Translations under genes and position numbers: made by a program
Part shown: positions 3,479-7,784 of the stretch, in pieces
Numbering within the stretch: position 1 is the first letter of the stretch
How the letters are laid out: every line of letters starts with the position of its first letter
Assembly (NCBI GenBank): GCA_900019385.1
Contig: FIZJ01000013.1
Coordinates: forward strand, 1 to 48,956
Length of the DNA stretch: 48,956 nt
DNA from: an uncultured Clostridia bacterium
GTDB taxonomy: Bacteria; Bacillota; Limnochordia; Darwinibacteriales; DTU012
Direction: 5' to 3'
The notes under the pieces: model-generated
What the model was told of the DNA's origin: nothing
The model's database searches: none
What the model saw: only the letters and a program-made list of their open reading frames with translations

Positions 3479-4069
3479 TCACTGTTCGGCCATCTCGACG
3501 GCGCCTTTCAACCCAATAGCTTCCGCTGCCGTACGCATACCCTGGATTGTTTCATGAATCAGTTCGTTCATTTCTATGCCCAACATCTGGCAGCCTTTCT
3601 CTATCACATCACGGTCGACACCGGCGGCAAAGTTTTTCTGCTTATATTTCTTAACCACCGACTTCACTTCCAGATCCAGCACACTCCGGGAAGGGCGCAT
3701 CAAGCAAACAGCGTTGATCAAACCGGTAAGCTCGTCAATTGCATACAAGACCTTTTCCATGCGGTGGATCGGCTCCACATCGCAGCAGATGCCGTACCCA
3801 TGGCTGCAGACGGCATGGATGTATTCTTCATCGATACCCCGCTCCCGCATGATTTCGGCTGTTTTCTGGCAGTGCTGTTCCGGAAACTGCTCATAGTCCA
3901 AATCATGAAGCAGCCCTATCACACCCCATTTTTCCTCGTCTTCGCCGTAAAGGCGGGCGAAGTGGCGCATCACTGCCTCTACAGCCAATGCGTGCTTCAA
4001 TAATGCATCTGATTGATTGTATTCAGTTAGAAGTTCCCAGGCCTGCTCCCGGGTTAGCGGTGCTGCCAT
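3479..4069 (-). CDS. HD-superfamily hydrolase
   Basis: A 196-residue protein starting at the ATG at 4069, seven bases after a clear AGGAGG; the frame stays open further upstream but that part is not needed. It shows the HD metal-binding pattern: His26, His55-Asp56 in GLLHDLDYE, and a later His in a CSHGYG context. This matches small stand-alone HD-domain proteins (COG2316-like), presumed metal-dependent phosphohydrolases whose substrates are mostly unknown. It is followed after 32 bases by the GH2 glycosidase, so the two are probably co-transcribed, but nothing links their chemistry. No membrane segment or second domain is visible. Confidence 0.75.
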   Translation of the reverse strand: MAAPLTREQAWELLTEYNQSDALLKHALAVEAVMRHFARLYGEDEEKWGVIGLLHDLDYEQFPEQHCQKTAEIMRERGIDEEYIHAVCSHGYGICCDVEPIHRMEKVLYAIDELTGLINAVCLMRPSRSVLDLEVKSVVKKYKQKNFAAGVDRDVIEKGCQMLGIEMNELIHETIQGMRTAAEAIGLKGAVEMAEQ

Positions 4070-4247
4070 CTCTATTCCTCCTGACATTGTTGTGGTATAG
4101 TGGAAGATGCATTGGTGATGCATTATTGTTTGGTATTCGCATCCAGCATAGGAAACTCCTTCAGTGCCTGGATATCCCAAACCTTATTGCCACACTGCTT
4201 AGGCTTAGATCCACCGTATAATTTCTGGAAAAAACTGATTTTCCCCC

Positions 4248-4276
4248 TTGCCTTTTGCGAAGTTTTATGCTATATT
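4248..4276 (+). promoter_or_regulatory. Promoter upstream of the M48 peptidase gene
   Basis: TTGCCT (4248-4253), a 17-base spacer, and TATATT (4271-4276) preceded by TGC, an extended -10. It sits about 30-40 bases before the peptidase start and fits a SigA-type promoter. The rest of 4070-4247 shows no gene; it contains a GATGCATT direct repeat near 4107-4124 of unknown meaning. Confidence 0.65.
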
Positions 4277-4307
4277 CTAAATTAACAGAATTATACTTGC
4301 GATAGGA

Positions 4308-5102
4308 GTGGTGAGGTTGGATGTTCGTCTTCGGTTCAGAATCCTTTATTACCTCCTGATCGTATTCTTCATAGCGATTTACCTAATCGCTATATGGTGC
4401 ATGGTTTCTGACAGGGTGCATTTTAGCGTGACATTATCGCTTTTTCTGACTCTTCATGTTGTGATTACCTCAATTGGCTGGCGGTTACCGATAATCCAAG
4501 CACGAGCTGGGATATTCCAGACTCTGACAGAAGGCCCCATTCACGAGATCACTACCGAGCTTCTGCGCAAAGCAGAGCTGAAACTCAAACAGATTCACGT
4601 GTTCATACAGCCTGCTAAGAGCTTTAACGCGATGGTAAACGGTTATCGGGATTATTTCTACATCATCGTGACCAAGCCCTTGCTTGAGACACTGTCCAAT
4701 GAGGAACTAAGGGCGATCTTAGCTCATGAGATAGCGCATATCAAGCATAAGGACGGTGTAAAAAGATTGTTTGATCTTTGGATGCTCATAATCCTCCCGA
4801 TGGGCCTGCTTACCACAGCCAACGTGTTACCAAAAGATTCTCTTTCCAGTAATCTCATCGGGACCATTGGTATCGTCAGCTTTGTTGTGTTGTTGCTTCG
4901 CTGGTTATCCAACACTAGAAAAGGCGAATACGCTGCAGACCGCTATGCGGCCGAGCTGATCGGTGACAAAGAAGCCCTGATTCGCGCACTGACAATTCTA
5001 AATGAGAAGTCCCGGTATAAGCCTGAATTTGCGGTATACAGACGGCCTCTCTTGACGCATCCTGATCTGAACTCACGCATTGCCAACCTACGTAAAGCTT
5101 AA
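4308..5102 (+). CDS. Membrane-bound M48-family metallopeptidase
   Basis: A 264-residue protein with two N-terminal membrane segments (about residues 10-32 and 40-60), a zinc site HEIAH (His140, Glu141, His144) and the third ligand Glu207 in GEYAADRY. A further hydrophobic hairpin (about 155-200) lies between them. This is the HtpX/Ste24 (M48) pattern, with the active site expected on the cytoplasmic face. The start is uncertain: GTG 4308 and GTG 4311 are close to the AGGAG, while TTG 4317 has better spacing. It has its own extended -10 promoter and is followed after about 50 bases by a small double-glycine-leader peptide gene, suggesting a role in maturing, clearing or tolerating that peptide. 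General membrane quality control is the alternative. Confidence 0.85.
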   Translation: MVRLDVRLRFRILYYLLIVFFIAIYLIAIWCMVSDRVHFSVTLSLFLTLHVVITSIGWRLPIIQARAGIFQTLTEGPIHEITTELLRKAELKLKQIHVFIQPAKSFNAMVNGYRDYFYIIVTKPLLETLSNEELRAILAHEIAHIKHKDGVKRLFDLWMLIILPMGLLTTANVLPKDSLSSNLIGTIGIVSFVVLLLRWLSNTRKGEYAADRYAAELIGDKEALIRALTILNEKSRYKPEFAVYRRPLLTHPDLNSRIANLRKA

Positions 5103-5153
5103 AAAGGATATCCGGGGATCCTTTTATGAATAAAGGAAAGGAGGTGGGTGTTC

Positions 5154-5417
5154 ATGGCCGAGCTCAGCAATCTGACTACCCTTGATGATGTTCAGTTGTT
5201 GGCGATTAACGGTGGTTTGGAACCTGATAAAATCGCATCCGGTCTAGGTGCAATCGCATCAGCCACATCCATAGCAGTACACCTAGGCGGAGCATCGATT
5301 TTCGGTATGAGCGTAGGATCTCTCTTGGCTTGCGGCCCCGTTGGATGGGCTATCGCAGGGGCAGTAGTCGTTGGGTCTTTTGTCGGCGGTTACTTAATCG
5401 GAGATGGGCTAAGATAA
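5154..5417 (+). CDS. Small double-glycine-leader peptide, bacteriocin-like
   Basis: An 87-residue peptide from the ATG at 5154, nine bases after AAGGAGG; GTG 5148 is too close to that site. The first 21 residues end in LLAINGG, a double-glycine leader of the type cut by C39-peptidase ABC exporters. The remaining 66 residues are very rich in Gly, Ala, Ser, Val and Ile, contain one Cys, and form a long hydrophobic stretch with several GxxxG-like spacings, as in class II two-peptide or membrane-active bacteriocins. No second peptide, exporter or dedicated immunity gene is visible nearby; the only candidate partner is the M48 membrane peptidase just upstream. The family is not certain; it could also be a signalling peptide. 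Confidence 0.65.
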   Translation: MAELSNLTTLDDVQLLAINGGLEPDKIASGLGAIASATSIAVHLGGASIFGMSVGSLLACGPVGWAIAGAVVVGSFVGGYLIGDGLR

Positions 5418-5458
5418 CCCCCTATCGCAGATATCCGTAGCACACTACACCCGTCATA

Positions 5459-5484
5459 AGACTGCCAGCCCGGACTGGCAGTCT
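5459..5484. terminator. Perfect 10-bp inverted repeat between convergent genes
   Basis: AGACTGCCAG and CTGGCAGTCT pair perfectly around a 6-base loop. It lies between the ends of the double-glycine peptide gene (+) and the helicase gene (-), so it may serve both directions, although neither side has a long T run. Confidence 0.55.
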
Positions 5485-5528: not shown

Positions 5529-7784
5529 TTACAGAATGATCGATACCTGGTCCCTGTCCATCCGGGCGATACACTCTTTAATCTTGCCCCCCAAATATGC
5601 ATCCTCCAACGCAGCATTGCGCACCTGCCGCAGCAGATCAATTCCGCGCCGGAAAGCAAAAACCAAATCGCCTTCATCAATAGCCGCCGCATCCATCAAA
5701 GTGGAGAAACTCTCTCCATGCGACCAGCGGTAGGCCAAGAGCGCGATATGGTCGTTGAAGGTGACGGTGGAGTAGCCCAAGAACCGTTCTTCCATCTTGG
5801 CCAACTGAAACACAAACTTGTAGGCAGGCGCGAAATTGAGTCTATGACGGATCTTCACTTCGTTGCGGCGCGGCTCATAGCTGATGGCAACCGCCAGGGC
5901 ATTCAGCTCTTCCACAGAGTACTTATGGAACCACCCATCCATGAACAGTTCGGTGATCAACAGCTCATGACCGTGGATTTGACTGGCAAACTCACCAGCC
6001 GCTGTCAGCTGGTTGCCGTTGAGATAGCCCAAGGCCTCAAGCAGCGCTTTCTTGGATTGAAACTCCTGGTAATACCTTCCCTGGGGATCAATCTGCTGCT
6101 CCCGCTTCAGCAAAGCCTGGTAGCGGTTTTTCAGCTTGCGGTACTTCTTCTGATCGCGCAAGCACTTGCGCTGTTCTTCTCTGGAACACTCTTTCAAGGA
6201 CATTTGACTGAGTTTATCCTGGATAATCGCTATTTCCTGCCGCAGCTTCCGCTTCGATCGCGGATTCTTGGTCTTGCGCAGAATAGCCTGGAGCCGTTTT
6301 TTGTTCCGGACCAGCCGCTCATACTCCACAGGGCATGATTGGCTGTCCAAGTGTTCGCAGAATTTGTCCAGCTCCGCTTTTAACTCATCGATCTGCTGCC
6401 GCAGAAAACTCCTGGTGTCCAAAGCTTGGTATGTGGCGAAATTCTGCCCCAGGATGCGGTAAATGTGCTGCTCATCATAGTTTTTGATCAAATTCAGAAC
6501 AGAGTTGTATGTCAGGTTGAACTGGCTTTGCAGCGGCTCAATCTCAGACTCTTTCATACTCGGCAGTTCCTGCAGGTCGAAGTACTGGAAGTCCACTACA
6601 GTGAACACAAAGCCTTCCGTATCGATCCCCCGCCTGCCTGCGCGCCCAGCCATTTGATAGTATTCACGGTTGGAAATGGTGCGGAACGACTGGCCGTCCC
6701 ATTTGGTGCTGGAGTCAAAACAAACAGTGCGGCAGGGGAAGTTCAAACCCACTGCGAACGTTTCTGTACAGTACAAAACCTTGATCAAGCGGTGGGTGAA
6801 CAGGTCTTCCACCACATCTTTCAAAGCCGGCAGCATCCCGGCGTGATGATAACCGATTCCCTGCAGCAGAAGACTGCGCAAAGTACTCCAGCGGTCGCTC
6901 AGGATCGGGGGATAGCGCTCTGTCACTTCTTCGATCAACGCTTCCACCCGCCTGCGTTCCTTCGGCGTCAGGAAGTTGTGTTCCCAGCCAAGCTCCACCG
7001 CGTTGAGTTCTGCTTTTTTGCGGCTGAAGGTGAAAAAGAGACAGGGCAGGTAGTCATCCTTGATCGCTTTGATCAAATCCACATGTGTGGTCTTGGGCAC
7101 AGCCCGAGGATCGAGAGATTTTAGCCTGCCGCTTATTTTCTTATACTGCTTCTGGAACTGATTCACCGGCACCATGCCCAAACTTTGTTCATAGATAAAG
7201 TGGCGGAGAGGCACCGCCCGTTCAAAGTAAGTCACCACTTTAATATCCTGCTGTTTGATCTCGCTGATCCACGATGCCAGCTGAGTCACATTTGGAATTG
7301 TGGCGCTCAAGCCCAGAAACCGCATCGAATCCGGCATAAAAATCAGGCTTTCTTCCCAGACACTGCCCCGCTCGGGATCGTCGATGTAATGGATCTCATC
7401 GAAGATGACATAGCGGACATCAGCCACCCGCTCCGGCGATTCCTGGAGGAGATTCCGGAAGATCTCGGTGGTCATAATCAGAATTGAAGCATCGGGATTC
7501 ACAACTATATCGCCAGTCAAAATACCGACTGCTTCTTCCCCGAGAAGCGCCTTGAACTCCTTGAACTTCTGATTGCTCAACGCTTTGATCGGGGCGGTGT
7601 AGATCACCCGGCCATGTTCCCTGTACACTTTTTCGATCAGATAATCAGCGATCAATGTCTTGCCGGTGCCGGTGGGAGCCGCCACGAGTACGGAAAAGCC
7701 CTGGTCGATGTGCTCGATCGCTTCCTGCTGAAACGGGTCCAAGACAAAGCCCCGGTAATTCCTTTGTGTGCCCTCAATAATCAA
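5529..7784 (-). CDS. Ski2-like DEAD/DEAH-box RNA helicase
   Basis: A 751-residue protein starting at TTG 7784 behind AGGAGG. Visible motifs: a Q-like FQQEA, Walker A APTGTGKT (residues 36-43), DEIH (129-132), SAT, a TETFAVGLNFPCRT segment and motif VI QMAGRAGRRG, the last two typical of the Ski2/Mtr4 family. A highly charged, probably coiled-coil region rich in Lys and Arg (about 465-575) follows, then a C-terminal helical domain. Bacterial members (such as actinobacterial HelY) are presumed to unwind structured RNA; the substrate here is unknown. It lies 36 bases downstream of the ADP-dependent kinase gene and may share its transcript. Confidence 0.85.
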   Translation of the reverse strand: MIIEGTQRNYRGFVLDPFQQEAIEHIDQGFSVLVAAPTGTGKTLIADYLIEKVYREHGRVIYTAPIKALSNQKFKEFKALLGEEAVGILTGDIVVNPDASILIMTTEIFRNLLQESPERVADVRYVIFDEIHYIDDPERGSVWEESLIFMPDSMRFLGLSATIPNVTQLASWISEIKQQDIKVVTYFERAVPLRHFIYEQSLGMVPVNQFQKQYKKISGRLKSLDPRAVPKTTHVDLIKAIKDDYLPCLFFTFSRKKAELNAVELGWEHNFLTPKERRRVEALIEEVTERYPPILSDRWSTLRSLLLQGIGYHHAGMLPALKDVVEDLFTHRLIKVLYCTETFAVGLNFPCRTVCFDSSTKWDGQSFRTISNREYYQMAGRAGRRGIDTEGFVFTVVDFQYFDLQELPSMKESEIEPLQSQFNLTYNSVLNLIKNYDEQHIYRILGQNFATYQALDTRSFLRQQIDELKAELDKFCEHLDSQSCPVEYERLVRNKKRLQAILRKTKNPRSKRKLRQEIAIIQDKLSQMSLKECSREEQRKCLRDQKKYRKLKNRYQALLKREQQIDPQGRYYQEFQSKKALLEALGYLNGNQLTAAGEFASQIHGHELLITELFMDGWFHKYSVEELNALAVAISYEPRRNEVKIRHRLNFAPAYKFVFQLAKMEERFLGYSTVTFNDHIALLAYRWSHGESFSTLMDAAAIDEGDLVFAFRRGIDLLRQVRNAALEDAYLGGKIKECIARMDRDQVSIIL

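Follow-up and report, generated by a model that had tools for sequence, protein, structure and literature searches.

Gene content of the locus

The window (the whole 48,956-nucleotide stretch that we analysed) carries two plus-strand genes between two minus-strand genes, one encoding an HD-domain protein and the other a helicase. The upstream member of the pair encodes a membrane peptidase of family M48, and the downstream member, separated from it by 51 bp, encodes a small precursor with a double-glycine (GG) leader. The features are as follows.

3479-4090, minus strand: HD-domain gene (PF01966), a neighbour outside the system, conserved in the related genomes G001 and G004
4248-4276, plus strand: possible sigma-70 promoter, TTGCCT-17-TATATT, with an extended -10 (TG) and a consensus match of 9/12
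4317-5102, plus strand: M48 (Ste24/HtpX-type) membrane zinc peptidase, 261 aa, from PF01435, catalytic motifs and an AlphaFold model
5154-5417, plus strand: double-glycine-leader precursor, 87 aa (21-aa leader and 66-aa Gly/Ala-rich hydrophobic core), from leader pattern, PF10439 and an orthologue
5154-5216, plus strand: leader peptide MAELSNLTTLDDVQLLAINGG, with C39 cleavage predicted from the sequence after GG
5459-5484, plus strand: hairpin, a probable terminator between the convergent peptide and helicase genes, from fold and conservation
5529-7784, minus strand: Ski2-like DEAD/DSHCT helicase gene (PF00270, PF08148), a conserved neighbour outside the system, syntenic in G001 and G004

Translation of the peptidase likely starts at TTG 4317, behind the Shine-Dalgarno (SD) sequence TAGGAG, with GTG 4308 as a possible alternative. 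A profile search matched the protein to PF01435 with 97 bits (cut-off 20.3), and its catalytic residues are invariant: HEIAH, the E/A/D residues of the third-ligand motif and the C-terminal HP...R are all intact. Together with hydrophobic segments that are predicted to form membrane helices, these are the full set of features expected of Peptidase family M48. The AlphaFold model (mean pLDDT 83.5) found its best PDB matches in ZMPSTE24/Ste24p, with TMq up to 0.72. While the protein thus shares with HtpX and Ste24 (ZMPSTE24) the fold, the membrane helices and the HExxH and downstream E/D motifs, it is shorter, forms a long divergent branch in the M48 tree, has a bacteriocin-like partner peptide and scores at best 67 bits against HtpX equivalog models (NCBIfam cut-offs 245-422). 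PF02517 was absent from it in the profile search, which sets it apart from proteins with a CPBP/Abi domain. The approximately 2.0 of 2.17 Mb of this genome that were scanned contain just one M48 gene besides this one. Among plasmids, M48 homologues amounted to 1288 records, mostly from Klebsiella, and among the matches listed the annotation was zinc metalloprotease HtpX.

The precursor begins at ATG 5154 with a strong SD (AAAGGAGGTG). Spacing in its leader is canonical (L-12, L-7, I-4, and GG at -2/-1), and the hydrophobic residues at -12, -7 and -4 followed by GG are contained in LDDVQLLAINGG. The strict leader pattern combined with an SD occurs once in the window, against 0.13 occurrences expected in simulated windows of the same composition, and the same L-12/L-7/I-4/GG pattern is found in PF10439 (Bacteriocin_IIc) peptides of other genomes. 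The precursor itself matches PF10439 with E=0.001 and 19.4 bits, which is below the 27.1-bit cut-off, and we regard it as weakly resembling that family without assigning it as a member. The mature core is acidic (pI 5.4) and has one Cys, the C-terminus (GDGLR) lacks a CAAX-type end, and a search of solved structures with the peptide gave no match. Within the scanned approximately 92% of the genome (~2.0/2.17 Mb), this is the sole convincing GG-leader ORF. The initial annotation, made from the sequence alone, had described an M48 peptidase paired with a bacteriocin-like GG-leader peptide. Our analysis confirms that pair as real and upholds the bacteriocin-like nature of the peptide.

Signals around the two genes differ in their value. 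An extended -10 promoter of the pair's own, as had been proposed, is present upstream of the M48 gene, but sites of that quality are no commoner in the window (4 found) than in shuffled sequence (2.7 +/- 1.7), so the promoter is not usable as evidence. The hairpin downstream of the precursor (-18 kcal/mol, z=-4.3) likely marks the end of the transcript; a simple terminator scan missed it because its T-run is weak.

The locus in related genomes and the unlinked exporter

The initial annotation had allowed for a small ORF without homologues. We found an orthologue in the sister species G004, where a contig opens with the C-terminal 58 residues of the precursor (47% identity, E=1e-11); behind them come the hairpin and the convergent helicase gene, as in the window. 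Differences between the two genes, by codon position, number 26/17/38 over 60 codons, consistent with a precursor gene under amino-acid constraint. The G004 contig that carries the HD gene stops inside that gene, and the M48 slot of this species falls in the assembly gap between contigs C13 and C19. In another congener, G001, the interval between the HD and helicase genes is occupied by two half-size ABC exporter genes (L155:3564-7061) instead of the M48-peptide pair, which identifies the interval as a variable slot in a conserved neighbourhood. Neither G001 nor a further congener, G002, has the peptide or a C39 exporter; G004 keeps both, and G003 has a C39 exporter of the same type with no peptide detected. 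Congeners without the peptide are also without an M48 of the window type.

No ABC exporter adjoins the pair, as the initial annotation had observed, but this premise was misleading. A search of the genome for a C39-type exporter, which that annotation had suggested, found exactly one C39-domain gene, on contig C16 and unlinked to the pair. It encodes a 725-aa C39-ABC protein and is followed by genes for HlyD and two outer-membrane efflux proteins (OEP), a combination of the CvaAB/TolC-like type I kind that implies an outer membrane. A GG-leader precursor in this genome therefore has an exporter available to it, probably the one by which the window peptide leaves the cell, and the M48 peptidase need neither export the peptide nor remove its leader. 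In the stretches read around the C39 exporters of G000, G003, G004, G006 and G007, no GG-leader substrates were seen.

Recurrence of the pair in bacteriocin arrays

A search for PF10439 across 398 genomes of the phylum led to G412 and G305, two informative genomes that belong to a single other family, where the pairing of an M48 gene with a GG-leader peptide recurs independently. Both have arrays of bacteriocin genes, with a separate membrane protein encoded after each precursor. The G412 array (L292) starts with two precursors and a CPBP/Rce1-like protease (PF02517, 81 bits), continues with a precursor beside a 117-aa membrane protein and another beside a 124-aa membrane protein, and includes a precursor followed by a 391-aa M48 peptidase (PF01435, 89 bits), after which come a C39-ABC exporter and HlyD. 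The array of G305 (L293/L300) is similar and likewise includes a precursor paired with an M48 gene, as well as an Rce1-like gene.

These two genomes represent different genera. When their arrays are compared, identity is 64% for the cores of the M48-linked peptides and 56% for the M48 proteins. For another cassette the figures are 52% (core) and 64% (membrane partner), and the cores beside the 124/116/134-aa membrane proteins are also alike (48-50%), while non-cognate cores align poorly. Each peptide thus tends to keep its own partner, with M48 among the partners. Array M48 genes were found only in G412 and G305 among 24 genomes of their order. In these arrays the precursor comes first and the M48 gene second, the reverse of the order in the window, and the window M48 shares only 26-29% identity with the M48 proteins of the cassettes. 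The tree places window and cassette proteins in one clade in 12% of bootstraps, with long branches. Given the low identity and the lack of a supported clade, recruitment of M48 may have been independent, and a role in the arrays may not transfer to the window. At approximately 110 loci that encode other M48 homologues, in other phyla and in the same class, no GG-leader ORF lay alongside, as expected of a large family made up mostly of housekeeping proteases. A plasmid search with the G412 M48 gave no match.

A proposed role in self-immunity and its alternatives

The gene that follows a class II bacteriocin precursor in such arrays is usually an immunity gene. In both G412 and G305 the M48 peptidase occupies the slot that immunity-type membrane proteins take in the other cassettes, and so, among the three roles that the initial annotation had offered (processing, export coupling or neutralisation of the peptide), neutralisation fits best. 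We hypothesize that the window contains a bacteriocin- or microcin-type cassette of a C39-exported peptide and a dedicated M48 peptidase, most likely a self-immunity protease, a reading that we favour with restrained confidence. Under this hypothesis, the single unlinked C39 ABC exporter would recognise the 87-aa precursor through its double-glycine leader, cleave it after GG and export it across both membranes with the HlyD adaptor and the outer-membrane efflux proteins. The hydrophobic core of 66 aa, which resembles a glycine zipper and is presumably antimicrobial, would then act on the membranes of competing cells, while the M48 peptidase would destroy or extract any peptide inserted in the inner membrane of the producer, as has been proposed for CPBP/Abi immunity proteases.

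Synteny makes it probable that the M48 partner is specific to its peptide. The two genes are adjacent in the window and such a pair is co-conserved in G412 and G305, with the M48 slot of G004 lying in the gap noted above; immunity itself we infer as the role of the peptidase. Several observations count against a cassette of this kind, including a precursor that falls below the PF10439 cut-off, an acidic core unlike most cationic class II bacteriocins, a gene order reversed relative to the arrays, and the fact that protease partners are not always immunity factors.

This last point bears on a role in maturation, in which the M48 peptidase would trim or process the leader or the core within the membrane, either ahead of export or in the course of it. 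The peptidase is of the Ste24 type, whose eukaryotic members process prenylated pheromone peptides. Roles in maturation have been proposed for SagE, for SilX/SilCR and for the M48 genes of circular-bacteriocin clusters. In the latter, M48 genes lie near those for head-to-tail cyclised bacteriocins and leader removal has been suggested (PMC8659200), while the CPBP protein SilX is required for bacteriocin production and not for immunity (PMC9298176). The window precursor, however, has no CAAX-type C-terminus, its canonical GG leader and the C39 exporter already provide for leader removal, and neighbouring cassettes in G412 and G305 have similar leaders without an M48 gene. We therefore consider a maturation protease rather unlikely here. 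The pairing might also be a coincidence, with a housekeeping HtpX-like quality-control protease lying by chance upstream of an orphan bacteriocin gene. The assembly gap in the sister species, the ABC transporter pair in the variable slot of G001 and the unsupported grouping of window and cassette M48s all leave room for this. Yet the sequence scanned has just two M48 genes, one of them 51 bp from the sole convincing GG precursor, two other genera have the same pairing as a co-conserved cassette, and an M48 of the window type is missing from congeners that lack the peptide, all of which makes coincidence improbable. C39-exported GG-leader peptides can also be signals, as in the ComC/BlpC type, and the product might be a secreted signal, a colony peptide or an inner-membrane peptide with no antimicrobial function, which the M48 peptidase turns over or senses. 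While an acidic core with one Cys would suit such a peptide, known peptide pheromones are far shorter and less hydrophobic than the Gly/Ala-rich core of 66 aa, relatives of the window peptide are located in multi-peptide bacteriocin arrays, and neither a regulator nor a histidine kinase adjoins the window gene, so that we give the signal interpretation very little weight. Proteolysis as the proposed mechanism can be tested directly through the catalytic residue in HEIAH.

Relation to known systems

The closest parallel to the proposed function is found in CPBP/Abi (Rce1-type) proteins, among which SkkI, PlnI and PlnL serve in self-immunity and are believed to break down the cognate bacteriocin (PMC8538875). 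Like the window M48, these are multi-span membrane metalloproteases encoded at the immunity position next to a bacteriocin-type precursor with a GG leader, and CPBP proteins occupy other cassettes of the same G412 and G305 arrays as M48. The two families are unrelated, CPBP proteins being type II Rce1-like enzymes with EExxxR and M48 proteins Ste24-like type I CAAX proteases with HExxH. On this analogy, the array M48 would most simply be the Ste24-type equivalent of CPBP proteins, which are of the Rce1 type. The pair in the window, which the initial annotation had put forward as a new two-gene arrangement, is better described as a variant of protease-type immunity or protease-linked bacteriocin cassettes than as a wholly new system.

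One earlier report of M48 peptidases in bacteriocin clusters concerns a different class (PMC8659200). There too an M48 zinc peptidase lies near a bacteriocin precursor and its role is only suggested. Those clusters differ in that the M48 gene is three genes downstream of a circular precursor, with leader cleavage or cyclisation suggested, whereas in the window it adjoins a GG-leader precursor and a C39 exporter is present in the genome; the GG leader argues against assigning the peptide to the head-to-tail cyclised class. Similarity also exists to class IIc bacteriocins and class II microcins with C39 export (CvaAB-TolC-like), with their GG leaders, hydrophobic Gly/Ala-rich cores and export by C39 ABC, HlyD and an outer-membrane efflux protein. 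The system in the window differs from these in its unlinked exporter, sub-threshold precursor and acidic core, and its partner gene encodes an M48 peptidase where they have a small immunity protein.

In the openly licensed literature that we searched, we found no description of M48 beside GG-leader bacteriocins, although absence there is not proof, and no protease-type immunity family other than CPBP. The pairing of M48 with GG-leader peptides suggests a little-noticed class of self-immunity protease. A broader proposal, which we advance tentatively, is that M48/Ste24-type (type I CAAX-like) peptidases make up a second class of bacteriocin self-immunity proteases, recruited independently and parallel to the Rce1-type CPBP proteins. 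This class would be present in three genera or more, and would also serve a microcin-like system that has a single, unlinked exporter and belongs to a lineage with outer-membrane efflux genes. It is often poorly explained how a producer withstands the membrane-active bacteriocins that it makes. If M48 is indeed a second, unrelated membrane protease family in the immunity slot, intramembrane proteolysis would be a general immunity strategy. An M48 gene beside a GG-leader ORF would in that case also offer a genome-mining handle for peptides that exporter-centred searches miss, as they would miss the window peptide because its exporter lies on another contig.

Additional precursors and leader motifs

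Large bacteriocin arrays with many GG-leader precursors are present both in G412 (L292) and in G232 (L294). In L292, truncated copies of the C39-ABC N-terminus lie between cassettes, suggesting cassette duplication and recombination, and elsewhere in G412 a second copy of the M48 gene, degraded and with a single stop (48% identity), is located at a contig end (G412:C13:55-348, L301). A same-order genome, G011, encodes two tandem GG-leader bacteriocin-like precursors (L295:8520-9016), a possible two-peptide bacteriocin; no M48 gene was seen in their flanks as read. We also identified leader-like motifs, PLSQEELEEVEGGYK and PLERDEMEMVDGEYK, in the same-order genomes G021, G016, G014 and G012 (L283:1411-1701, L281:1444-2098, L278 and L279). 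The precursors that contain these motifs start with a hydrophobic, Sec-like signal, and one of them (L281) is followed by a small membrane protein; this could reflect a hybrid export route.
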